From NCBI GenBank assembly GCA_947624975.1, contig CANQMP010000013.1, positions 1-54,554 on the forward strand: DNA of 54,554 nucleotides. The letters are read 5' to 3'. Below the pieces are notes generated by a model, which did no database searches, was not told the origin of the DNA, and was given only the letters and a program-made list of their open reading frames with translations. Shown here one piece after another: positions 2,479 through 46,675 of the stretch. Made by a program: the position numbers and the translations under genes. The stretch is from Candidatus Gastranaerophilales bacterium. GTDB lineage: Bacteria > Cyanobacteriota > Vampirovibrionia > Gastranaerophilales > Gastranaerophilaceae. Position 1 is the first letter of the stretch. Each line of letters begins with the position of its first letter.

Positions 2479-3576
2479 ATGCTCAGAACAGGAATTGTAG
2501 GACTTCCGAATGTCGGAAAATCAACTTTATTTAATGCTTTAACAAGCTCTAAAAACGCTCAGAGTGCAAATTATCCGTTTTGCACAATAGAACCTAATGT
2601 CGGTGTGGTTAACGTACCGGATGAAAGACTTGAAATTCTTGCAAAACTTTGCAAAACGAACGTTATAATCCCGACGGCGATAGAGTTTGTCGATATTGCA
2701 GGACTCGTAAAAGGTGCAAGCAAAGGCGAAGGACTCGGAAACCAATTCCTGCATAATATAAGAGAAGTCGATGCAATAATTCAGGTTGTAAGATGTTTTG
2801 ATGACGAAAATACAATTCACGTTGCGGGAAAAGTTAATCCGCTTGATGATATTGAGGTTATAAATACTGAACTTGCACTTGCCGATTTGGCATCGGTTGA
2901 AAAAAGACAGGCAAGAATTTCAAAACAGGCAAAAGGCAAAGATAAAGATGCAATGCTTGAAAATGACGTGTTAACAAAACTTACGGATTTGCTTTCCGAA
3001 GGTACATTTATAAATCTCAAAGAACATTTTAATGAAGATGAAATTGCCGTTGTTAAGCAATTAAATTTGATGTCGGTTAAGCCCGTAATTTATGCGGCAA
3101 ATGTTTCCGAATACGATTTGAAAAACGGAAATGCTTACACTCAACAGGTAAAAGATTATGCCCAAAAACACCATGCCGAAGTGGTTTTGATATCCGCAAA
3201 AATAGAGGAAGAACTTGCGGAACTCGGCAAAGATGAGGCAAAAGAATATTTGTCGGAGCTTGGAGTTTCGGACAGCGGTATCGACAGAATGATAAAATCC
3301 GTTTATAAACTTTTGGATTTAAGAACTTTTATAACAGCCGGAGAAAAAGAAGTTCATGCCTGGACAATTCCTGCCGGTGCAAAAGCTCCGCAGGCTGCGG
3401 GTGTTATCCATACCGATTTTGAAAAAGGATTTATCAGAGCCGAAATTACACCTTATGATGAATTTGTAAAAAACGGTTCTTATACCGCTTGCAAGGATAA
3501 AGGCGTAACCCGTCTGGAAGGTAAAGATTACGTGGTGCAGGACGGAGATTTGGTTCATTTCAGATTTTCGGTTTAG
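2479..3576 (+). CDS. ychF: Redox-regulated ATPase YchF (Obg-type P-loop protein)
   Basis: The 365-residue length is normal for YchF. Seen in order: P-loop GLPNVGKST (residues 8-16), switch region DIAGLVKGASKGEGLGNQFL, NVSE replacing the NKxD guanine-specificity motif, and a C-terminal TGS domain. YchF prefers ATP and is associated with ribosomes and stress responses. The start ATG has a good Shine-Dalgarno sequence (AGAGAGG) about 9 nt upstream. The gene stands alone, divergent from the ABC permeases. Its stop codon overlaps the end of the convergent GH13-like gene by 4 nt, with no terminator between them. Confidence 0.97.
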   Translation: MLRTGIVGLPNVGKSTLFNALTSSKNAQSANYPFCTIEPNVGVVNVPDERLEILAKLCKTNVIIPTAIEFVDIAGLVKGASKGEGLGNQFLHNIREVDAIIQVVRCFDDENTIHVAGKVNPLDDIEVINTELALADLASVEKRQARISKQAKGKDKDAMLENDVLTKLTDLLSEGTFINLKEHFNEDEIAVVKQLNLMSVKPVIYAANVSEYDLKNGNAYTQQVKDYAQKHHAEVVLISAKIEEELAELGKDEAKEYLSELGVSDSGIDRMIKSVYKLLDLRTFITAGEKEVHAWTIPAGAKAPQAAGVIHTDFEKGFIRAEITPYDEFVKNGSYTACKDKGVTRLEGKDYVVQDGDLVHFRFSV

Positions 3577-6500
3577 TTTGCGTTAAGCGCGAGTTTTGAG
3601 CCTGTAACGACTTCTTTCTTAGCAATATAAGGATTAGAAACGATATTATATTGCGGATTATACATAACACGTCTGCCTGTGAATGAAGGATTACTGTACA
3701 ATATCAGAGTTGTATCTTTGAAAGTAATCGGTTCATCGTGTCCGTTTACGTGGCGTTTGAGTTTGTAATGACCGTTTTCTTCCCTCGTATAATATATATC
3801 GTTTTCATCAAACGCATTAACGAATTTTGTTCCTTCTTTTATTCCGCATTTTAACCCGTCTTGACCGTTAAAATTAAACGATACACTGTCCAGCGTAACT
3901 TGTGACGGAGTATAATATTGGTTATATTGGTGATTAATTCCTGCAGTGTTGAAAAGTGACAATGTCATGCTACCTTTCGGGTTTTGTCTTAAAAGGGCTG
4001 ACACTTTGATGTCTTCCATCTTGCCTTGTTCGTTAAGGAATGAAGCTTGTTGAGGTTCAAGGAGGTATGGAGTTCCGTCATTCAACGCTTCAAGCTCGGG
4101 GCGTTTACGCAGATTATATATGCCCATAAGATAATTCTTGAAAGTAGCAACAAATTGCATATAATCAGGATGTTTTTCGTCGTCTGCCCATTCTTCGTGG
4201 GTTATGTTACGGTTAGAAACCGTAATGTTTTTGGTCGTAAATTCAAAACCTGTTGAGCCGTATTCGTCACCGCCGTACAATGTCGGATTACCGACAAGCC
4301 CGACAAGGAATTTTGTATGTCCCAGAAGTTTTGACATTGCAGGGTCGATGATACATTTTAGCACCAGTTTTTTAAATTTTTTCTTTTTATCATCGGGAAG
4401 AAAGCTCTTTTCGTTATTATTGTAATCCATTTCATCAAATACTATATCCACGGCGGTGTTAAAGTCTTTGTATCCGAAACCTTCAGCCTCAAAAACTTTA
4501 CCTTTAAATTTTCCGTTAGAGATGTTTTTAAGCGCCTTTAGTATTAAATCATAAATAAGTTTGTTTTCATCTTGATTTATAATTTCACTATTGGTAATTT
4601 CTTTCAAAGCTTTTCCCAGCCCGCTGTTTATGGTTTCGCATTTAGCTATGGCAAGCGGGTTTACGCGTCTGTAGTCGTAATTGTTTACCTCAGAATCGTC
4701 GGGATTTTGGTCAAAAGGAGTTCCGTTAAGAATTCTATACGCTCTTTTGCGATATTGGTTCATATTTGCATTGTCTTTATCGGATAAGTCGGCATAAACC
4801 ATATCCATGTCTAACGCATAGCCTTCCAAAGCTCTGCATTTATCGTGGTTACCCGCAAATGTATATGAGTAAATTATTGATTCCAAAGAACCGCTGTCAA
4901 GAAAGCTTTTCATCTGTGAATAAACTTTTGTACCTTTATCAGTACCTTTATCCGGTGAATGTTCACCGTCAAAATCAAAAAGTTTTCCAAAAATTTCGTT
5001 AATTCCCGAGAATAAGTATCCGTAATTTGCTACGGTTGTAAATCCGGCCTCGTTAACCAATTTTTTAACAGCTTCGCACGAATTTGAATATTTGTTTGAT
5101 TTTTCGCCGTAACCTCTTTTGAAGAACGGATCTTCATCGGTAACTTCTGCTGCTATGTAAGCATCCGGATGATAACGTTTTACGCCTGCGGTAAATTTTG
5201 CCCAAAATTCAATAATGCTGTTCCACGTGGTTTCAAAATCCATTTTACCGTTTCTTAACGCTTCAGTATCGGCAATGTCTTTTGTCGCATCTATTCTCCA
5301 ATCAAGACCTGCTTCGGCACGGCTGACTATCATGTCGGATAACTTGAAACTTTCGAGGCTTGTGTCTTTGATTGATTTGAAAAGAGCATCGACAAATTTT
5401 TCTCTGTCATATTTTGCCGATTCGGAATTTGTGAGTTTTGATATACCGTTTCTGAGTTTTTTAATCAGTGATTCCGCTTCATCTTCGGGACTGTCGGCTA
5501 TAATACCCATTTGCAAAAGCGAGGTATTATTTTTCAAATCGTAATAGTTATAAGAAATTTCTCCGGTTGTATCGTCCACACTGAATTGTGCATTGGGACT
5601 TACCGACTTAATTACTGCAAATCTTGCGATTTCGGCTGTCAAAAACGGCAGAACATATTTTCCGTAAGGAGTTGTACGTCCTATGCTGTCATAGAATTTT
5701 TTATCTTCCGGAAGTTTATCCTGTACACGTTTAAGCATGAGCTTTGCAAAGTTTGACATCTCTTTTGTGTACATGTCGTCAGTCATTTCGTACACTTTAG
5801 CATATTGCTCATCTATGTGAATATTGTTTTCTTCCCAGAATTTATAACGGGAAACGCCTATATCCTTTTCGCGAATTGCCCTTTTTGAAATGTACGGAGT
5901 TCCGAGAGTTGATACGATGTCTTTTCCGACTTCTATTGAGTCAAGCGGTACGTCCATTAAACCTTCAAGAATATATTCATCATAAGGTTCGTAAGTTTTG
6001 CCTTCTCTGAGTTCGTAGCGGTTGTTAATAACGTTTGATATAATTTTTTCGTTAATGTCCAGGTCTTTCGGGAAAATTGAAGCATCTTTTTCGGATTGAA
6101 TTTTTTGTAAAATTTCGTTCGGTGTTTTTCTTTCAACATTTTTCAAGTGTTGTGCGACATGTAATCTCAATATTTGGTTTGTTTTTTTAGACCAGTACTG
6201 TGCCGAAGAAACCGCATAATCCTGAACTTCAAAATGCTTTTTCATAAATGTTTCTTTTTGAGCTTCTCTTTCTTTTTTATTCAGAATATTTTTAAGCATT
6301 ATTGTTTCGACATGCGAAGGCAGGTAGTTCAATTTCGCAATATCGGGGTTAGCATCCCATGTTTCAAATCCGCCTTCGTGCTTGCCGTCAAGTCCGAAGT
6401 ATTCAAAGTTTGTGAGAACTTTTGTGCCTAACGTTGAATTCATCATGATTTTATTGTCTGAATGTTTATTGTAATCATTGAGGAATTTAACATTTCTGTG

Positions 6501-7676
6501 GTATGTTTCAGGGTCAATTCTGAAACAATAAGGGATTACCGTATCATTGTGGTTATTAATTTCAAGCAGATTAGACGGAGCTTGAGTGTAAGCCTTTATT
6601 TTTCCCTGCTCGTCAAAACTGTTTGCGTTAACCTGTGTCGGGTCATAAATTTGTATATAAGTCGGTTTATGCGGGTCGTAATTCTTTTTGCAGAGTTTTG
6701 ACGTTATTATTCCGTTATCTTTTTGTTCATATTCGTATTTAGGGTTAATAAGTTTATGGACGACATTTCTTTTCGTATTTTTACCGAAAACGCTCATTTT
6801 TAAGGGGCTGTCTTTGAGGGTTTCCATTCTGAACCAGTAAAAATACGGTGATTTCTCGCCGAATTTCAATACGTGTTGAAAATGTGCACCTTGAAGTCCT
6901 TCGTTTACGAATGCACCGTCAGAAACAAGATTTATACCTTTTGCAAAGAGTTTTTTCTGTAAAGATATGTAATTGTTAATATTTCCCAAACTGTGTGCCA
7001 TTTGGAAGTTATTTTCATTCCAGTAAGCATGCGCGGAAACATTGTCATCCGTAAACAGCGGGGTTGTAACTAATCTTGTGAAATTATCATATTTTCCCGC
7101 CTCAAGGTCTTTTACTATTCCCGCAAGTGAACCTCCGATTTTATTTGCGACATTTTTAGGCATTTTCCTTGCACTGTCGAGGTTTTTGTTGGGAATAATA
7201 TTGTTTTTGTCATCATAAACCCATGCTACATTGTTAAAATCAGGCATGATAAGTTTCATTGCCCCGCCTTTAGTGTGTGTCGGGGAATTCGCGGATACTA
7301 TATTGTAAACTTCACCGTTTTCAACGATAGTGTTACCGGCATCGGCTGCGGTAATAGTTTTACCGCCGTTTTTGGGAACGAGCAGGTAGCGGTATGCAAA
7401 AGCTTCATCAGCGGCAATATTGTAGTCGCCAGCCATATTTATACGTGTTCCTCCCCTGCCGATATTTATTTTATCTTCATCCGTGTCATTATTTGTAAGT
7501 TTGCCGGCGGTAAAATAATTTCCGTACCTGTCTTGTTCTACGGCATAAATTTCCAAATAACAATCGTAATTATTCGGGTCGTATACATAATTGAATTCAT
7601 ATTCTTTGCGTCCCCGTTCGGATTTTACGGGTTTGTATCCTTCAAAATTTATTTTGGTTATGGGTGCTACCTTCAC
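3573..7676 (-). CDS. Very large GH13 (alpha-amylase superfamily)-like protein
   Basis: The 1,367-residue protein has a divergent GH13 barrel. Matching landmarks are GLDWRIDATKDI (beta-4; nucleophile D796), YIAAEVTDED (beta-5; acid/base E844) and FAGNHDKCRA (beta-7; D945). GNPTLYGGDEYG further on resembles the GIPxIYYGDE segment of amylases, and an earlier stretch, GINLVSDGAFVNEG, resembles the beta-3 region. The family acts on alpha-glucans, so an intracellular glycogen or maltooligosaccharide role is plausible because no signal peptide is visible. The start is GTG with a strong AAGGAG; the N-terminus MKVAPITKINFEGYKP is a short tag I associate with proteins of this lineage. At two to three times normal GH13 size, roughly 700 residues before the catalytic core are unassigned. 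Substrate and reaction are unproven. Confidence 0.75.
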   Translation of the reverse strand: MKVAPITKINFEGYKPVKSERGRKEYEFNYVYDPNNYDCYLEIYAVEQDRYGNYFTAGKLTNNDTDEDKINIGRGGTRINMAGDYNIAADEAFAYRYLLVPKNGGKTITAADAGNTIVENGEVYNIVSANSPTHTKGGAMKLIMPDFNNVAWVYDDKNNIIPNKNLDSARKMPKNVANKIGGSLAGIVKDLEAGKYDNFTRLVTTPLFTDDNVSAHAYWNENNFQMAHSLGNINNYISLQKKLFAKGINLVSDGAFVNEGLQGAHFQHVLKFGEKSPYFYWFRMETLKDSPLKMSVFGKNTKRNVVHKLINPKYEYEQKDNGIITSKLCKKNYDPHKPTYIQIYDPTQVNANSFDEQGKIKAYTQAPSNLLEINNHNDTVIPYCFRIDPETYHRNVKFLNDYNKHSDNKIMMNSTLGTKVLTNFEYFGLDGKHEGGFETWDANPDIAKLNYLPSHVETIMLKNILNKKEREAQKETFMKKHFEVQDYAVSSAQYWSKKTNQILRLHVAQHLKNVERKTPNEILQKIQSEKDASIFPKDLDINEKIISNVINNRYELREGKTYEPYDEYILEGLMDVPLDSIEVGKDIVSTLGTPYISKRAIREKDIGVSRYKFWEENNIHIDEQYAKVYEMTDDMYTKEMSNFAKLMLKRVQDKLPEDKKFYDSIGRTTPYGKYVLPFLTAEIARFAVIKSVSPNAQFSVDDTTGEISYNYYDLKNNTSLLQMGIIADSPEDEAESLIKKLRNGISKLTNSESAKYDREKFVDALFKSIKDTSLESFKLSDMIVSRAEAGLDWRIDATKDIADTEALRNGKMDFETTWNSIIEFWAKFTAGVKRYHPDAYIAAEVTDEDPFFKRGYGEKSNKYSNSCEAVKKLVNEAGFTTVANYGYLFSGINEIFGKLFDFDGEHSPDKGTDKGTKVYSQMKSFLDSGSLESIIYSYTFAGNHDKCRALEGYALDMDMVYADLSDKDNANMNQYRKRAYRILNGTPFDQNPDDSEVNNYDYRRVNPLAIAKCETINSGLGKALKEITNSEIINQDENKLIYDLILKALKNISNGKFKGKVFEAEGFGYKDFNTAVDIVFDEMDYNNNEKSFLPDDKKKKFKKLVLKCIIDPAMSKLLGHTKFLVGLVGNPTLYGGDEYGSTGFEFTTKNITVSNRNITHEEWADDEKHPDYMQFVATFKNYLMGIYNLRKRPELEALNDGTPYLLEPQQASFLNEQGKMEDIKVSALLRQNPKGSMTLSLFNTAGINHQYNQYYTPSQVTLDSVSFNFNGQDGLKCGIKEGTKFVNAFDENDIYYTREENGHYKLKRHVNGHDEPITFKDTTLILYSNPSFTGRRVMYNPQYNIVSNPYIAKKEVVTGSKLALNAN

Positions 7677-9162: not shown

Positions 9163-9520
9163 AAGGGGAGGGGCAGACCGTCATTGCGAGCGAATGCCTC
9201 AGCTAGTCCCCTCTCCCCCTGCGGGAGAGGGAAGAATTTCTTAGTGAACGCAGTGAACTTAGAAATTCGGGTGAGGGGTAGCTCCCTCCCTTTATAAGGG
9301 AGGGCAGGGGTGGGTTAATTCCCTCGCCCCCTGCGGGAGAGGGCTAGGGTGAGGGGTCATATTATATCATATTGTTGATGGGTGAAATGAAAATTGTTTC
9401 ACCCATCCTACTTTTTGGAAGGGAAAATTGTCTGTCATTGCGAGCGAATGCATCAGCTTATTAATCTGCACGCAGTGCCAAAATAAACCTCTCACCTCTC
9501 ACTTTTCACTATATTTTCAT
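9163..9520. repeat. Intergenic repeat cluster B
   Basis: No gene is visible between the ahcY terminator and the pilin-gene promoter. The stretch holds the same element families as cluster A, largely in the opposite orientation. These include the near-palindrome with the GAACGCAGTGAAC core at 9234-9268, a CTTTATAAGGGAGGG hairpin near 9290, two CATTGCGAGCGAATGC elements near 9181 and 9435, and a TCACCTCTCACTTTTCAC tract near 9490. Confidence 0.8.
9374..9412. repeat. Hairpin element, left of the pilin-like gene
   Basis: GATGGGTGAAA pairs with TTTCACCCATC around a 9-nt loop. An inverted, related copy lies at 10493-10530, on the far side of the pilin-like gene. One stem base pair differs between the copies and is compensated on both arms (GTGAA/TTCAC here, GTGGA/TCCAC there). 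Confidence 0.7.
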
Positions 9521-9590: not shown

Positions 9591-9641
9591 GAGAATGTAT
9601 AGAAAAATGAAAGGAAAAAACTATGAAGAAGATTATTATTA

Positions 9642-10451
9642 GTGCGTTTAACCCATCGGGGGGGGGGGGATTTTTCTCCTGGCAAAGGTTTTGAGGGGAA
9701 TCTAACCTCAAAAACCAAGAGTTACGCATTTACATTGGCAGAGGTCTTAATCACCCTTGCCGTCATCGGTGTCGTTGCGGCATTAACCATGCCCACACTT
9801 ATACAAAAATATCAGGAAAAAGCTACTATAGCCAAGCTTAGAAAAGTTAACACAACGTTAAATCAGGCCTATCAATTAGCGCAAATCGAGTATGGATCTG
9901 TTAATTCTTGGTTTACTAAGGTGTCAATCAATAATGATACAAGCGGTGTAAATTTAGAAAATCAAAAATTATTCTATGAAAAAATTGCAAAATATATGAA
10001 AACAACATCTGTTTGTTATGATGATGAAGAAGGATGTCCGAAATATAATACCGTTTTTACTTTAAGCGGAACTAAAAGGGATGTGAGTTGGCGAAAAAAT
10101 GTACAGTTAGCGGATGGTACATTCATTATGACATTTTGGGTTAGCCGTATAAACTGTAATGCCAATAGTAATTGTGGAGATTTTGCTGTTGATATAAATG
10201 GTGATAAAGGGCCTAATACAATGGGTAAAGATGTGTTTAATTTTATTGTATCCCAAACTGCTATCTATCCAAACGGTGCGCCTGCATTAGCAGATGCTGT
10301 GGAGGTAAAGTTTCCAAAACATTGTGACAGGAAAACAGATGCAGATTTCAGAAACGGTTATACTTGTGCTGCTTGGGTAGTTTACAATGAAAACATGGAC
10401 TACCTGCATTGTGATGGTTTATCTTGGAACGGTAAACATAAATGCGATTAG
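9642..10451 (+). CDS. Type IV pilin-like protein with a poly-G leader, probably phase variable
   Basis: The protein has a class III-type N-terminal prepilin signature, YA|FTLAEVLITLAVIGVV, with Glu at +5 and a hydrophobic helix. A Cys-containing globular region follows (pairs such as SVCYDDEEGC and CNANSNC), ending in KHKCD. It would be cleaved and methylated by a prepilin peptidase and assembled into type IV pili or pseudopili; pilT is in the window. The open frame begins at GTG 9642, which has no ribosome binding site. The ATG at 9623 has AAGGA and a promoter, but with 12 G at 9658-9669 it runs into TGA about 20 codons later. With 11 or 14 G that ATG would join the pilin frame, with a leader of about 35 residues. 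As sequenced it looks OFF, or weakly expressed from GTG. Confidence 0.85.
   Translation: MRLTHRGGGDFSPGKGFEGNLTSKTKSYAFTLAEVLITLAVIGVVAALTMPTLIQKYQEKATIAKLRKVNTTLNQAYQLAQIEYGSVNSWFTKVSINNDTSGVNLENQKLFYEKIAKYMKTTSVCYDDEEGCPKYNTVFTLSGTKRDVSWRKNVQLADGTFIMTFWVSRINCNANSNCGDFAVDINGDKGPNTMGKDVFNFIVSQTAIYPNGAPALADAVEVKFPKHCDRKTDADFRNGYTCAAWVVYNENMDYLHCDGLSWNGKHKCD
9658..9669 (+). repeat. Homopolymeric tract of 12 G in the pilin leader
   Basis: Twelve consecutive G lie between the ATG at 9623 and the prepilin cleavage site. The tract length decides whether the ribosome-bound ATG is in frame with the pilin: 11 or 14 would be ON, 12 is OFF. Runs this long in an AT-rich genome are rare and slip readily. 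Confidence 0.9.
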
Positions 10452-37918: not shown

Positions 37919-38485
37919 ATGAGGAAAATATTATTTGTAACGTTAATACTTTTATTTGCCGGAAGTGTTTTCGCAAAGGAAAACACGGATTATGAGCAAA
38001 TTTACAGAGATTTAGAGCCTGTAGATTTTTCATACGTTCACAATATCGACCCCGGAGAAATGTTTGATACTCAAAACACTTCCTGGTCGCCTTATCCGTT
38101 ATTCAGACTTACGGCTCCGTTGTTTTTTAAAAACACCATGATTGAGCCGGGGTATTACCTCTTAACCCCCCGTGAGCATAAAGGTAACTGGTATATTTTG
38201 TTTAAAGAACAGGGAAAAGTAAAATATATTGTTCCCGCTTACAAACGTGAAATTGTTCCCATGGGATTTTACGACGAAAATCTTCCAAAGCCGAAACTCA
38301 CTCCTTCACAAAAATTCCATATAAAGTTTTTTGACTTTGTAGGAAAACACGTCGGTTCATCTCAGCGAAAACCTGCGCCTCAGACATTTTTAGAGGCAAC
38401 AGATTTGGAAAACAACTTCATTTCTCTGATAGTTTATTGGGGAAATTACAGATATTACATGATTTTACGCACAATTCAGCTATAG
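37919..38485 (+). CDS. Exported protein of unknown function
   Basis: The 188-residue protein has a signal peptide (LFVTLILLFAGSVFA, cleavage about residue 19). The mature part contains FRLTAPLFFKNTMIEPGYYL and LTPREHKGNWYILFKEQGKV, a beta-rich pattern. No family is recognised. There is no Shine-Dalgarno sequence; TTGCTT, 16 nt and TAAAAT end 6 nt before the ATG, another leaderless geometry. It converges on the first GT8 cassette with a 12-nt gap. Confidence 0.75.
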   Translation: MRKILFVTLILLFAGSVFAKENTDYEQIYRDLEPVDFSYVHNIDPGEMFDTQNTSWSPYPLFRLTAPLFFKNTMIEPGYYLLTPREHKGNWYILFKEQGKVKYIVPAYKREIVPMGFYDENLPKPKLTPSQKFHIKFFDFVGKHVGSSQRKPAPQTFLEATDLENNFISLIVYWGNYRYYMILRTIQL

Positions 38486-38497
38486 AGGCAATAAATC

Positions 38498-39508
38498 CTA
38501 ATCATTCCGTAATTCTTGTTCTTTATTGAAATCTGCCAAATATTTTTTTCTCGGTGGTCTGTAATATTTGAATTTAAAGCCCAAAAAGTTTATGATTCTT
38601 GTGTTTCCGAATTTTTGTTTGTAAATCAGTTTTTTAGCTCTTTTTAGTTTTTGATTTTTGAATGGTGTTTTCTTAAAATATTCATACCAAATATCCGCAT
38701 AATTTATTACTGCATTTTTCCAGGGTTTATTAACCGACGCGAAATGAATTATTACAGGATTAGACTTTTCGTCATAATCGTAGTAATTGTAATATATCGG
38801 GGCATCCGTAACTGATAAATAATTAAATTTGAACGGTAAATATTTGACTTTTTTATCTAAAACTCTGTTGAATGCGTCCTGATCTACAAATTCGTCATAG
38901 TGTTTTGTTTTACAATTAATTAGTTTTTCGGTTACTTTGTCTTTTCTCATTAAATCTAAATTCATAAGAATCATGCCGGAATTGAAATAGTTTTCCACGC
39001 CTAATTTTTCATTATAATTGTCATACAATATGGGAATATCTTTAACAACTCCTGCATAAACATCTTTTATATCAATGTTAAAAAGTTCTTTTATACCGCC
39101 TTCTTTATTAATTAAAGTATCGCAGTCTATGTATAAGACTTTATCTTTGTCATTTAGTATATTAGGTATATCAAATTTAACCAAAGCGGCAGGTGACACA
39201 TGACTTGAGATGTCACCGTATAAATCTCTGTATTTGTCCTTGTATTGTATGAATTTCAGATTAAGTTTATCGAGTTTAATGCTAAGGAGTTTATTAATGC
39301 TTTTTTCGGACAAATCAACACCTATAACATAAACATTATATTCTTCATTAGCAGTTCTGTTTTCCCATAACGACTGAATAGAAACACATGCAGGCATGAC
39401 ATAATTTTCATCGCAAATGTAAACTATATCGTAACAGTAGCACGGTTCTTTTTCATTAAAAGCCGATTCTCCTGTCAGTGAACGGGTTTTATGGGGGGGG
39501 GGGGGCAC
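38498..39508 (-). CDS. GT8 glycosyltransferase, cassette 1, poly-C leader (OFF as sequenced)
   Basis: The protein is a GT8-family transferase (LgtC/glycogenin type). DIVYICDENYVMPACVSIQS opens the fold, VLYIDCDTLINK holds the DxD motif that binds metal and UDP-sugar, and VDQDAFNRVLDKKVKYLPFK and PVIIHFASVNKPWKN are later family blocks. The open frame begins with GTG next to the C-tract, which has no ribosome binding site. The real start signal, AGGAGAG then ATG at 39531, encodes MKHKNIVQC and, with 13 C, ends at TGA within 20 codons. Fourteen C would fuse it to the transferase. About 170 nt upstream are shared with cassette 2. It probably decorates a surface glycan when ON. Confidence 0.88.
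   Translation of the reverse strand: MPPPPHKTRSLTGESAFNEKEPCYCYDIVYICDENYVMPACVSIQSLWENRTANEEYNVYVIGVDLSEKSINKLLSIKLDKLNLKFIQYKDKYRDLYGDISSHVSPAALVKFDIPNILNDKDKVLYIDCDTLINKEGGIKELFNIDIKDVYAGVVKDIPILYDNYNEKLGVENYFNSGMILMNLDLMRKDKVTEKLINCKTKHYDEFVDQDAFNRVLDKKVKYLPFKFNYLSVTDAPIYYNYYDYDEKSNPVIIHFASVNKPWKNAVINYADIWYEYFKKTPFKNQKLKRAKKLIYKQKFGNTRIINFLGFKFKYYRPPRKKYLADFNKEQELRND
39493..39505 (-). repeat. Homopolymeric tract, 13 C (coding strand), cassette 1
   Basis: Thirteen C between the ATG at 39531 and the GT8 frame. ON requires 11 or 14, so this copy is one base from ON. Confidence 0.92.
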
Positions 39509-39680
39509 TGGACAATGTTTTTATGTTTCATTATTTCTCTCCTATTTTTTACACGATAAGTACGTTAGATTCCTATTATGACATTTTTTTTGAATTTTGT
39601 CAAAAATTTACACAATATCATAACATTTCATACATCAATTTTATCGGTTATCAGAGATTCTGTATGCTCTGATTAATCCC
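39505..39680. repeat. Cassette spacer, copy 1 (direct repeat with 41462-41635)
   Basis: The stretch contains the leader start, promoter and the last codons of the next gene's FkbM domain (coding for TGLIRAYRIS). It matches the sequence at 41462-41635 almost base for base, for example TTTTTTACACGATAAGTACG in both. Homology this long would support recombination between cassettes. Confidence 0.85.
39575..39603 (-). promoter_or_regulatory. Promoter of cassette 1
   Basis: TTGACA, exactly 17 nt, then CATAAT on the minus strand. The same hexamers and spacing recur before cassette 2 and before the 119-residue gene. Confidence 0.75.
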
Positions 39681-41464
39681 GTTTCTTTACTGGTATTGTG
39701 AAAATATACAAATCCGTTTTTGGAGAGAATTTCAAAAATAGTTTCAGGAGATTTCTTGTGATACTCCATTACCAAAACATCAATTTTTTGTAACAGTCCT
39801 TTGTCGGATAACAATGGAAGAATTTCAAATTCTGCACCTTCAGCGTCGAGTTTTACAAAAACTTTTTCATTGTGTTTATCAATAATTTCTTTCAGTACAT
39901 TGTAAGCGTTTTTGATTTCCACATCAATAAGCGGAAGTTTTTTGTGCTTTGAAATTTCATTAGAGTAAACAGTACTCATCATACTTATGAAACTTTCATC
40001 ATACGGAATTTTAAATTTCTTGTCGCAGTCTCCGAGTCCGAAATTGTAAAAATCAATTTTTTTACTCAGTTCAGGATTTAGTTTAAGGTTGTTTTCCGCC
40101 ATTTCGTAAGTCAGCGGGAACGGTTCAAAGCCGTAAATATGTTTTATGTTATCATTTAATGCAAAATGTAATGATGTTACACCATAGTTTACGCCTATGT
40201 CTATCATAATAAACGGTTGGGTTATTGAAAAATCATAAACTTTTCCGCATAAGACTTCTTCTGAAATCCATATCATATTTTCAAGTTTACTTTGTAACAA
40301 TAACCCGTTACCGCTAATTTCAAAGGTATTTTTATCAGATTTTGTGACCTCATAACCAAAGGGTGCATATTTCTCATTTTTAAGATAATTAAATAATGCA
40401 TCCGACTTTTTTTTATTCAAGGTAAGCTTTAATTTTCCGACATGGTAAATTTCTTTACTAACGAGTTTTTCTCGGGTTACTATTTCTTTATAAAATAAGG
40501 GATTATTTTTTATCATTTTGAATTTCATTTTTAATCCAAAGATATTAAAAACCTTTGTATTACCGTATTTTTGCTTGTAAATAAACTTCCTTTTTCTTTT
40601 TAATTTACAATCTTTAAATACTGATTTTTTATAATATTTATCCCATTTATCGGTATAATTCACAGTATTGTTATTCCAAGGTTTTTTGGGTGAAACAAAG
40701 TGTATAATAACCGGATTTGATTTTTCATCGTAAATATATGAATTATAATAAACGGGTTTATCCGTAATAGTAAGATAATTGTATTTATAAGGTAAATATC
40801 GGACTTTTTCATTGAGAACTTTATTAAGAGTATCTTGATCGACAAATAAATCATTAGGATATTTTGCTTTATAGTCGATTAATTTTTCGGTTATTTTATC
40901 TTTTCGCATTAAATCTAAATTCATAAGCATAATGCCTGCATTAAAATAAGAACTTAAACCTAATTTTTCGTGATATTTTTCATGCATTTCAACAACATCT
41001 TTAACAACTCCCGCATAAACATCCGAAATGTCTGTATTATAAAGTTCATCTATTCCGTTTTTTGCGATTATAGTATCGCAGTCAATATATAGGATTTTGT
41101 TTAAATCTTTTAAAATATTAGGAATATCAAATTTAAAAAGTGTAGCTGTTGAAATATGTGAGTTTTTATTTTCATACAAACTTTTGTATTTATCTTTGAA
41201 TTGTAAAAGTTTAAGATTAAATTTATCAAGATTAATACTAAGAATTTTATTAATACTTATATCAGATAAATCAAGTCCGATAACAAAGACATTATATTCA
41301 TCATTTAGATTTTTATTTTCCCATAACGACTGAATAGAAACGCATGTAGGCATGACATAATTTTCATCGCAAATGTAAACTACATCGTAACAGTTGCACG
41401 GATCTTTTTCATTAAAAGCCGATTTGCCCGTCAGTGAGCGACTTTCATCGGGGGGGGGGGGCAC
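39641..41464 (-). CDS. GT8 glycosyltransferase fused to FkbM methyltransferase, cassette 2 (OFF as sequenced)
   Basis: The protein joins the two neighbours' domains. Residues 1 to about 320 match cassette 1 (YIDCDTIIAKNGIDELYNTD carries the DxD), and about 335-607 match cassette 3: a Rossmann-type FkbM methyltransferase with IMIDIGVNYGVTSLHFALND, GFEPFPLTYEMAENNLKLNP and VFVKLDAEGAEFEILPLLSD. FkbM enzymes O-methylate sugars, so it could add and cap a residue in one polypeptide. The C-tract has 12 C; the ATG at 41487 with AGGAG then reads into TGA, and 13 C would put it ON. The only open start, GTG, lacks a ribosome binding site. Confidence 0.88.
   Translation of the reverse strand: MPPPPDESRSLTGKSAFNEKDPCNCYDVVYICDENYVMPTCVSIQSLWENKNLNDEYNVFVIGLDLSDISINKILSINLDKFNLKLLQFKDKYKSLYENKNSHISTATLFKFDIPNILKDLNKILYIDCDTIIAKNGIDELYNTDISDVYAGVVKDVVEMHEKYHEKLGLSSYFNAGIMLMNLDLMRKDKITEKLIDYKAKYPNDLFVDQDTLNKVLNEKVRYLPYKYNYLTITDKPVYYNSYIYDEKSNPVIIHFVSPKKPWNNNTVNYTDKWDKYYKKSVFKDCKLKRKRKFIYKQKYGNTKVFNIFGLKMKFKMIKNNPLFYKEIVTREKLVSKEIYHVGKLKLTLNKKKSDALFNYLKNEKYAPFGYEVTKSDKNTFEISGNGLLLQSKLENMIWISEEVLCGKVYDFSITQPFIMIDIGVNYGVTSLHFALNDNIKHIYGFEPFPLTYEMAENNLKLNPELSKKIDFYNFGLGDCDKKFKIPYDESFISMMSTVYSNEISKHKKLPLIDVEIKNAYNVLKEIIDKHNEKVFVKLDAEGAEFEILPLLSDKGLLQKIDVLVMEYHKKSPETIFEILSKNGFVYFHNTSKETGLIRAYRISDNR
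41450..41461 (-). repeat. Homopolymeric tract, 12 C (coding strand), cassette 2
   Basis: Twelve C followed by GAT. ON requires 10 or 13 from the ATG at 41487. Confidence 0.92.
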
Positions 41465-41635
41465 TGGCTGATGTTTATATGTTTCATTATTTTTCTCCTA
41501 TTTTTTACACGATAAGTACGCTAGGTTCTTATTATGACATTTTTTTTGGTTTTTGTCAAAAATTTACACAATATCGTAACTTTTCATACATCAATTTTAT
41601 CGGTTTTCAGAAATTCTGTATGCTCTGATTAAGCC
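41462..41635. repeat. Cassette spacer, copy 2
   Basis: Near-identical partner of 39505-39680, covering the leader start, promoter and the 3' end of cassette 3. Confidence 0.85.
41531..41559 (-). promoter_or_regulatory. Promoter of cassette 2
   Basis: TTGACA, 17 nt, CATAAT on the minus strand, identical in layout to the cassette 1 promoter. Confidence 0.75.
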
Positions 41636-42496
41636 GGTTTCTGTGCCTATATTGTAAAAATATACAAACCCGTTTTTGGAAAGAATTTCAAAAATAGTTT
41701 CAGGAGATTTCTTGTGATACTCCATTACCAAAACATTAATTTTTTGTAACAGTCCTTTGTCGGATAACAAAGGAAGAATTTCAAATTCTGCACCTTCAGC
41801 ATCAAGTTTTAAAAAAATCTTTTCGTTATGTTTTGATAATATTTCAGAAAGGACATCAGATACATCTTTTATCTCAACTTTACTTACGGGTAGAGTTTTA
41901 TTTGATGATTCATTAGAATAAACCGTACTCATTGACCCCGGCAGATTTTCATCGTAAGCCGCTTCAATAGTTTTATTTGAATTTCCAAGTCCATAATTAA
42001 ACAATTCAATTTTTTGGGCTAATTTCGGATTATTTTGTAAATTATTAAGTGCTAAATTATACGTCGGAACAAAAGGTTCAAAACCGTATATGTGCTTGAT
42101 ATTGTCATTTAATGCAAAATGTAATGAGGTTATTCCGATATTGTAACCAATATCAATAAGTATAAAAGGTTCGTCTATATTAAAATCATATTCCGTGTTG
42201 CAAATAACTTCATATGCTGTAACTATTGAGGCAAATGACTTACTCTGAATAACGATATCACTATTTCGGACTTCAAAGAGATTGTTTTCTAATCTTTTCA
42301 CTCTGTAACCGAATTTTTCAAATTTATAATTTAAGTAGTCCGCGATGTCATATTTCTTATCAAAAGTTAATTTTAACTTTCCTATATGAATGATTTTTTT
42401 ACACTGAACTTTATTTTCCTTATACGTCGATTCGCTGTACAGTAAAGGGTTCTTATGGGGGGGGGGGGGGCACTGGCCAATGTTTACATGTTTCAT
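41597..42496 (-). CDS. FkbM-family methyltransferase, cassette 3 (ON as sequenced)
   Basis: The 299-residue protein starts at ATG 42496 (AGGAGG upstream) as MKHVNIGQCPPPPHKN, reads through 14 C in frame and continues into an FkbM domain: ILIDIGYNIGITSLHFALND (SAM-binding), GFEPFVPTYNLALNNLQNNP, and IFLKLDAEGAEFEILPLLSD. It has no GT8 part. Its last 60 residues are nearly identical to the end of cassette 2. It follows the 119-residue gene by 11 nt and is transcribed from that gene's promoter. It probably methylates a sugar of a surface glycan. Confidence 0.9.
   Translation of the reverse strand: MKHVNIGQCPPPPHKNPLLYSESTYKENKVQCKKIIHIGKLKLTFDKKYDIADYLNYKFEKFGYRVKRLENNLFEVRNSDIVIQSKSFASIVTAYEVICNTEYDFNIDEPFILIDIGYNIGITSLHFALNDNIKHIYGFEPFVPTYNLALNNLQNNPKLAQKIELFNYGLGNSNKTIEAAYDENLPGSMSTVYSNESSNKTLPVSKVEIKDVSDVLSEILSKHNEKIFLKLDAEGAEFEILPLLSDKGLLQKINVLVMEYHKKSPETIFEILSKNGFVYFYNIGTETGLIRAYRISENR
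42457..42470 (-). repeat. Homopolymeric tract, 14 C (coding strand), cassette 3
   Basis: Fourteen C encode four prolines plus parts of Cys and His codons and keep the frame open from ATG 42496. Loss or gain of one base would end translation early. Confidence 0.92.
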
Positions 42497-42507
42497 TATT
42501 TTTCCTC

Positions 42508-42867
42508 CTATTCTTCTTCTTTTTTTATTGTGTCGACGACCATTTTTGCCATTTCTTTTGCAATAATATGCTGTGTTGCAGCAGGACAATTTTGGAGCAT
42601 GTTCATTGCGGTTCTCAGAGTTGTGTCAATATCGTACCAACGACCTTTGCGATTGTCGTCAAGACCTGAACCTACCGCATTTATTATATCTTCAACAGCC
42701 TCAAACTTCTCATCTTCAATATTATGCTCAATAATTATTTTTATAAGATTTAAAGCAATTCTTATTTGCGTTTCGTCGTCCGATTGTTCAAGTGTCGCAA
42801 CCGCTTGCGATAACACCGGATCTTTATCGTACCATCTTCTATGCTGATTTGTGTATTCTTCTTTCAT
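42508..42867 (-). CDS. Small protein with two RWYD-type tandem repeats
   Basis: The 119-residue, acidic, helical protein consists of two copies of one module: RRWYDKDPVLSQAVATLEQ (about residues 10-51) and GRWYDIDTTLRTAMNMLQN (about 74-115), each followed by a helix with IA-x-x-x-x-K. I do not assign a family. AAGGAG precedes the ATG, and TTGACA-17-CATAAT lies just upstream. The same promoter layout is used by the phase-variable cassettes, and cassette 3 follows after 11 nt, so it leads their transcript. A role in controlling or assembling the glycan is a guess. Confidence 0.75.
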   Translation of the reverse strand: MKEEYTNQHRRWYDKDPVLSQAVATLEQSDDETQIRIALNLIKIIIEHNIEDEKFEAVEDIINAVGSGLDDNRKGRWYDIDTTLRTAMNMLQNCPAATQHIIAKEMAKMVVDTIKKEEE

Positions 42868-42891: not shown

Positions 42892-42920
42892 ATTATGATG
42901 TTTTTTTTAATTCGTGTCAA
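42892..42920 (-). promoter_or_regulatory. Promoter of the RWYD gene and cassette 3
   Basis: TTGACA, 17 nt, CATAAT on the minus strand, with the A-rich spacer also seen at cassettes 1 and 2. Confidence 0.75.
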
Positions 42921-46195: not shown

Positions 46196-46675
46196 ATGTG
46201 TGGGGTGCAGTCCGTCATTGCGAGCGAATGCCTCAGCTTATTTATACGAAATGCCTAATTATTTGACCCTTCACCCGAATTTCTAAGTTCACTGCGTTCA
46301 CTAAGAAATTCTTCCCTCTCCCGCACGGGGCGAGGGGTTGCCCTTTTTCCCTCCCATTATGGGGAGGGTTAGGGTGGGGTGCGGTTTCCCCCTTCCTTTT
46401 CCAAGGGAGGGGTCAGGGGTGGGCTAGTTCCCTCTCCACGTGCAAGAGAGGGTTAGGGTGAGGGGTTAAATAAATCGGAACTATGTGCAAATTTAAAAAG
46501 CTGGATTGCTTCGCATTCGCTCGCAATGACAGTCTTACTCCCTCCCCAAACGGGGAGGGGGTAGGGGTGGGTGCAATTATTTCGGTGCTTTAGCACCCGA
46601 TTTGAACCTCTCACTTTTCACTTCTCACTTTTCACCCAAACATTGCGTGCAGACTCAGTCTGCCACTTTTCACCC
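46196..46675. repeat. Intergenic repeat cluster D
   Basis: No gene is visible between prs and mscL beyond the prs promoter. The gap has the same families as clusters A-C: a CATTGCGAGCGAATGCCTCAGC element near 46214 and its inverse near 46505, the near-palindrome at about 46277-46311, AAGGGAGGG hairpins near 46360-46420, and TCACTTCTCACTTTTCACCC with GCAGACTCAGTCTGCCAC near 46647-46665. Confidence 0.8.

Follow-up and report, generated by a model that had tools for sequence, protein, structure and literature searches.

Why would three adjacent glycan-enzyme genes each begin with a short leader that runs into a dozen or more cytosines? The question is raised by a 54,554-nt stretch of DNA from a Candidatus Gastranaerophilales bacterium, here called the window; on its minus strand lie three cassettes (1, 2, and 3), whose bodies encode a GT8 glycosyltransferase, a GT8-FkbM fusion, and an FkbM methyltransferase, respectively. 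We consider that the locus is best explained, with high probability, as a three-gene contingency array operated by slipped-strand phase variation. Replication would add or remove one C in each tract, and this would shift the frame between the enzyme body and the short leader with its ATG and ribosome binding site, so that each cassette would be toggled independently at translation. In the assembled state, the FkbM of cassette 3 would be on, and the GT8-FkbM of cassette 2 and the GT8 of cassette 1 would be off; on/off combinations of GT8 and FkbM may yield several glycoforms. Tract length would vary between cells and expression would follow the frame. The array itself probably arose when an FkbM-spacer-leader-GT8 unit was tandemly duplicated in a syntenic glycan slot, the junctions being homogenised later by recombination.

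Leaders, tracts, and reading frames of the cassettes

The three genes and their parts are as follows.

38498-39531, minus strand: cassette 1 gene (GT8)
38498-39492, minus strand: cassette 1 body, LgtC-like GT8 glycosyltransferase (PF01501, E=9e-37; LYIDCDT (DXD) and HFASVNKPW present)
39493-39505, minus strand: C13 tract of cassette 1; the ATG frame would open at 11 or 14
39506-39531, minus strand: leader of cassette 1, ATG...CCAGTG, MKHKNIVQC
39641-41487, minus strand: cassette 2 gene (GT8 plus FkbM)
39641-41449, minus strand: cassette 2 body, GT8 fused to FkbM methyltransferase through a double linker (PF01501, E=1.6e-39; PF05050, E=1e-12)
41450-41461, minus strand: C12 tract of cassette 2; the ATG frame would open at 10 or 13
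41462-41487, minus strand: leader of cassette 2, MKHINISQC
41597-42496, minus strand: cassette 3 gene (FkbM)
41597-42456, minus strand: cassette 3 body, FkbM methyltransferase (PF05050, E=6e-14; IDIGYNIG and KLDAEG present)
42457-42470, minus strand: C14 tract of cassette 3, in frame as assembled
42471-42496, minus strand: leader of cassette 3, MKHVNIGQC

Every cassette begins with the leader ATGAAACATNNAAACATNNNCCAGTG (MKHxNIxQC), followed by the C tract; AGGAG precedes the leader ATG, and the distance from ATG to tract is 26 nt, in all three. The coordinates and leaders of this module, which a first-pass annotation of the DNA had described with tracts of 13, 12, and 14, were verified, as was its reading of the frames: from the ATG, cassettes 1 and 2 encounter TGA at codon 19 after 18 codons (the annotation had said within about 20), and cassette 3 is open. 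Cassettes 1 and 2 are each one base short of an open frame as assembled, and the bodies are open over 330, 602, and 285 codons in cassettes 1, 2, and 3, respectively. As in a contingency locus, a unit change in tract length toggles the frame of an otherwise intact gene. Runs of at least 12 C/G occur four times in the window against 0.0005 expected under a first-order model of it, and the longest other C/G run is 6; homopolymers far beyond chance thus lie in these genes.

The frames depend on which start codon is used. A GTG stands directly before the tract, and its frame runs through C13 and C12 into the bodies of cassettes 1 and 2, which would make these two genes constitutive and the leader noncoding. 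We regard this as very improbable and rejected it: the GTG has no ribosome binding site, whereas the ATG has a good one in all three cassettes, and in cassette 3 the GTG frame meets TAA right behind the tract, out of frame with the body. The GTG, which the first-pass annotation had named as the start that would undo its proposal, also lies ahead of the tract, so slippage would shift the frame even from there.

The promoters are arranged less uniformly than the leaders. The window contains three copies of the motif TTGACA-17-CATAAT and no more, all of them exact matches on the minus strand.

39575-39603, minus strand: promoter-like TTGACA-17-CATAAT of cassette 1
41531-41559, minus strand: promoter-like TTGACA-17-CATAAT of cassette 2
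42892-42920, minus strand: promoter-like TTGACA-17-CATAAT upstream of a 119-aa gene and then cassette 3

Cassette 3 starts 11 nt past the 119-aa gene (42508-42867) and is not itself directly preceded by such a box. The promoter said to be shared by all three cassettes is accordingly found at cassettes 1 and 2, and at cassette 3 only if that cassette is taken to include the 119-aa gene.

Profile matches to PF01501 and PF05050 bore out the three body types. The GT8 parts retain the DXD motif (LYIDCDT in cassettes 1 and 2) and HFxSxxKPW, as expected of members of PF01501, and the FkbM parts retain the S-adenosylmethionine (SAM)-binding motif IDIGxNxG (cassettes 2 and 3) and KLDAEG, as expected of PF05050. 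The closest solved structure to the GT8 part of cassettes 1 and 2 is LgtC (1g9r, E=1.7e-19). The LgtC-like GT8 probably transfers a hexose onto a surface glycan and FkbM probably O-methylates a sugar, the glycan being the presumed target. When the paralogues were compared, the proportions of nonsynonymous and synonymous differences (pN/pS) were 0.19/0.65 and 0.23/0.71 in the two domains. In both, pN falls far short of pS; the bodies are under purifying selection, and all three are thus maintained as proteins even though the assembly shows two of them out of frame.

Junction repeats and the glycan slot

The first-pass annotation had proposed a second source of variation, in which spacer repeats of about 170 nt would let cassettes recombine into new domain fusions. 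Alignment of the cassettes gave a different repeat, a block of about 550 nt that is about 90% identical between its two copies (41850-41300 and 39895-39340; mostly 84-98% per 50 nt), within which the spacer proper accounts for only about 110 nt.

41300-41850, minus strand: junction repeat copy A, paired with copy B
39340-39895, minus strand: junction repeat copy B, consisting of the FkbM 3' end, spacer, promoter, leader, tract, and GT8 5' end

The synonymous divergence (dS) is 0.24-0.27 (about 0.25) inside the junction blocks, whereas the flanking bodies are saturated. This contrast is the mark of recent exchange expected in a recombining cassette array, and the blocks have been recently homogenised by recombination. 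The near-identical ends that had been noted are these blocks; the bodies themselves share only 69% (GT8) and 64% (FkbM) protein identity.

A longer alignment (1653 nt, 76%) pairs FkbM of cassette 3, spacer, and GT8 of cassette 2 with FkbM of cassette 2, spacer, and GT8 of cassette 1, which indicates that the array is an FkbM-spacer-leader-GT8 unit present twice in tandem. Cassette 2 is the seam gene: a whole cassette 1-type tail is followed by a whole cassette 3-type start, with a double linker, and the spacing from KPW to the SAM motif is 159 residues, compared with 121 in the single-linker GT8-FkbM fusion of a relative (G019). Cassette 3 (FkbM) and cassette 1 (GT8) share about 100 nt of leader at 82.5% identity, of which about 43 nt lie behind the tract; the leader has therefore been joined to two unrelated domains, as the suggested leader swap requires.

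Could cassette recombination then be the main source of variation, with the tract as a by-product? The junction blocks of 550 nt, with dS of about 0.25 between saturated bodies, speak for it, as do the varied C-terminal domains to which GT8 is joined in relatives, but the chance seems small. With 31-36% of residues differing between the bodies, exchange is limited to the junctions; tracts also recur in single, non-repeated glycan genes. Moreover, the repeats flank whole FkbM-spacer-leader-GT8 units, and a crossover at the blocks would alter copy number only, by deletion or duplication of a whole unit. We thus retained recombination as a cause of junction homogenisation and rejected the idea that the repeats make new fusions; slippage at the tracts remains our preferred source of variation.

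The array occupies a slot that is conserved in the genus, with one gene at each edge.

42508-42867, minus strand: conserved 119-aa gene at the slot edge upstream of cassette 3, no Pfam match
37919-38485, plus strand: 188-aa gene at the opposite slot edge, 73-87% identical and in the same place in most genus genomes

The 119-aa gene was matched in all 33 genus genomes; among the 32 relatives, 31 have it at 86-97% identity and G025 shows only a weak partial match. The 188-aa gene lies within 8 kb on its far side in most of them. The slot is empty in some species (e.g. G031, G004, and G026), and others hold open reading frames (ORFs) of glycosyltransferase size. GT8 fusions occupy it in four relatives: G019 carries GT8-FkbM, and we read the fusion partners from the sequence as GT4-like in G024 and methyltransferase-like in G009 and G017. 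These fusions resemble the window's array in place, in their homologous GT8, and in linker type (FIYKEKxGNKRxxHIG), but they have no leader tract; within the slot, leader tracts were found only in the window's species. G009 and G017 instead carry an in-frame G run (G11 and G10, respectively) within the gene, placed where GT8 meets the linker; slippage at this domain junction would toggle between a one-domain and a two-domain product. Across the genus, the point at which GT8 is fused to other domains is a linker that has no long repeats.

A search for the leader in 33 genus genomes, the window's own included, with up to three mismatches allowed, found it only in the window's genome and in none of the relatives. 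Searches of viral contigs with the array leader, the leader of pilin-like genes (see below), and the cassette 2 protein found no further copy of the locus, and a scan of named genomes returned only two distant GT8 relatives (36%). A GT8 relative (36%) sits in a metagenome-assembled genome labelled Gemmiger (L034), where lateral transfer or mis-binning may have placed it. LigA of the window is 55-72% identical to that of family members, 52% to that of a metagenome-assembled genome titled Gastranaerophilales, 46% to that of another family of the class, and 43% to that of a Gemmiger-labelled one, which makes Gastranaerophilales the likely lineage.

Tracts in the genome and the family

The window's genome (G000; 1.9 Mb, a draft of 59 contigs) contains 79 runs of at least 9 C/G, the threshold for a tract used here, against 1.9 expected, and 47 of them are at least 12 long. 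Nearly all coding tracts lie in pilin-like or glycan genes. At 35 tracts, a pilin-like motif follows in the downstream frame, mostly with a common leader MKK...NPS; N_methyl matches in the genome total 104. One of these genes lies in the window and carries its fourth long run, which the first-pass inventory had missed while recording the three of the array.

9623-10451, plus strand: pilin-like gene with leader MKKIIISAFNPS; G12 at 9658-9669, out of frame; N_methyl at 9717-9788

The other coding tracts have Pfam matches to GT2, GT6, GT8, GT10, GT61, GT-D, polysialyltransferase-like, FkbM, epimerase, deacetylase, TupA, pyruvyl transferase, and similar families. Tract genes for host-like sugars are clustered at 49-77 kb of contig C4 (L042, L043, and L044), namely a fucosyltransferase (GT10), a GT6, and three polysialyltransferase-like genes. 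Another FkbM-like gene (L054, position 2533) has an ATG 26 nt before a G11 run and a different leader sequence. Tracts are present in 32 of the 33 genus genomes, with up to 176 per genome, and in 99 of 117 family genomes, representing 37 of 41 genera. Larger cyanobacterial genomes of the phylum also carry some runs, by count only and not as enrichment.

Frames were classified automatically by the presence of an ATG close to a ribosome-binding-like site, and three relatives (G015, G001, and G053) were sampled rather than scanned whole. Internal tracts of the window's genome (n=15) are distributed over in-frame, +1, and +2 as 5/4/6, as expected if tract length drifts. Pilin leaders behave differently: 5 of 26 are in frame in the window's genome, 0 of 22 in G015, 2 of 23 in G001, and 5 of 25 in G053, for a pooled 12 of 96 against the one third expected (p=4e-6). 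Given the automatic classification, the sampling of the relatives, and the non-independence of related paralogues, this value overstates the evidence. In the three relatives, most pilin tracts have length 10 in the same register (19/22, 15/23, and 19/25 in G015, G001, and G053; stretches L183-L202, L203-L222, and L223-L242), and 11 would be in frame. For the window's genome, we also considered whether the bias might point to another start codon and dropped the idea, as there was no in-frame start across the leaders.

Two readings fit this bias, a default-off repertoire or slippage in transcription or translation. In the latter, programmed slippage of RNA polymerase or the ribosome on the run would yield a fraction of full-length product in every cell, setting a level rather than a switch. 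A conserved state one base short of open is indeed odd for genes that are kept, but we consider programmed slippage unlikely as the explanation: lengths in the window's genome range from 9 to 26 with all three frames represented, cassette 3 is in frame, and an equilibrium length of 10 together with copied leaders accounts equally for the uniform register. No known slippage stimulator was noticed, although no search was aimed at one.

In line with the former reading, it is possible, though doubtful, that a start-codon leader with a G/C run constitutes a portable N-terminal switch module placed on surface genes that are otherwise unrelated (GT8, FkbM, and dozens of pilin-like genes), whose usual length means off and whose run orientation follows replication and not the gene. 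If so, a cell would display few of many variants at once. With local skew over a few kb as a proxy for replication direction, the G run favours the G-rich strand (Mann-Whitney p=4e-6 in G015, 4e-5 in G053, 0.004 in G001, 0.005 in G000, and 0.03 in G106). Genes, too, lean to that strand, but the tendency of the run holds for genes of either strand, and in G015 eight pilin-like genes read poly-C and 22 poly-G. Because skew is a proxy, the tie to replication is a lead and not a result. The window's four tracts all place their C run on the minus strand, though one of the genes is on the plus strand.

It may also be asked whether the lengths are an assembly or library artefact and the genes are ordinary ones, in frame and with a tract of fixed length. 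Long runs of G are difficult to sequence, the draft has 59 contigs, and contig ends cluster at tracts (15 breaks against 0.6 expected). However, assemblies of few contigs are equally rich (77 tracts in the 8 contigs of G015 and 51 in the 5 contigs of G013), other reading frames of the window are intact, and a length artefact would leave unexplained why tracts occupy the leaders of surface genes; an artefact is therefore improbable.

Three points weigh against slipped-strand switching. Each species is represented by one genome, so that we infer length variation within a species, the lengths that differ (13, 12, and 14) being those of paralogues; the single length and single out-of-frame register of the pilin tracts in three relatives are less random than free drift; and the clustering of contig breaks at tracts, which otherwise counts in favour of switching, could also be caused by the repeated leaders. 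Nevertheless, the anatomy, the chance statistics, the intact bodies, and the genome-wide pattern argue well for the original proposal that tract slippage would act as an on/off switch.

Other features of the window include two ORFs without a Pfam match at E 1e-10.

3573-7676, minus strand: ORF of 1367 aa
19646-21241, minus strand: ORF of 531 aa
568-603 and 46609-46635: short tandem TCTCACT-type arrays, with similar CTCTCACTTTTCAC strings near the pilin gene at 9490

Known systems and meaning for the family

The mechanism is known from Campylobacter and Neisseria; the lineage, the number and length of the tracts, and a common leader on unrelated domains differ. In Neisseria, lgtC is switched by poly-G. 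LgtC is a GT8 enzyme like those of cassettes 1 and 2, but neither lgtC nor the other phase-variable lipo-oligosaccharide (LOS) glycosyltransferases there have an FkbM fusion, a common leader, or a cassette array. The Campylobacter maf genes, which recombine with one another, are adjacent paralogues with homopolymeric tracts, as here; they belong to one domain family, whereas the present array mixes two enzyme types. A work cited in PMC3068675 reportedly saw a maf mutant regain motility through a frameshift at the tract.

The poly-G/C loci of Campylobacter jejuni (flagellin glycan, LOS, and capsule; cj1295, maf, and cj0617 families) resemble the array in their intragenic tracts, surface-glycan genes, and neighbouring paralogues, in an AT-rich host-associated bacterium (PMC3068675, PMC6321876). 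In C. jejuni drafts, the median number of putative loci is 20 at a cut-off of 7, and lengths 9 and 10 dominate in Campylobacter (PMC6321876). By comparison, the genome described here, from another phylum, has 79 tracts at the stricter cut-off of 9, its tracts are longer (47 of 79 at least 12), and the common leader on unrelated enzyme domains is a feature of its array. Our literature search, which covered sources other than subscription journals and preprints, found no paper linking Gastranaerophilales or Melainabacteria with phase variation, in keeping with the first-pass remark that the architecture was not described for this lineage.

A 2025 review asked why genomes with multiple phase-variable loci seem restricted to pathogens (PMC11868660). 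The family concerned here comprises uncultured gut bacteria related to cyanobacteria that are not known as pathogens, and its genomes carry up to tens or more than 100 candidate loci each, mainly in genes of pilin-like or glycan type, among them fucosyl-, GT6-, and polysialyl-transferase-like ones. The question of restriction to pathogens is thus open to test with existing metagenome reads, and the array offers a clean case, in which one putative switch module serves two enzyme types.

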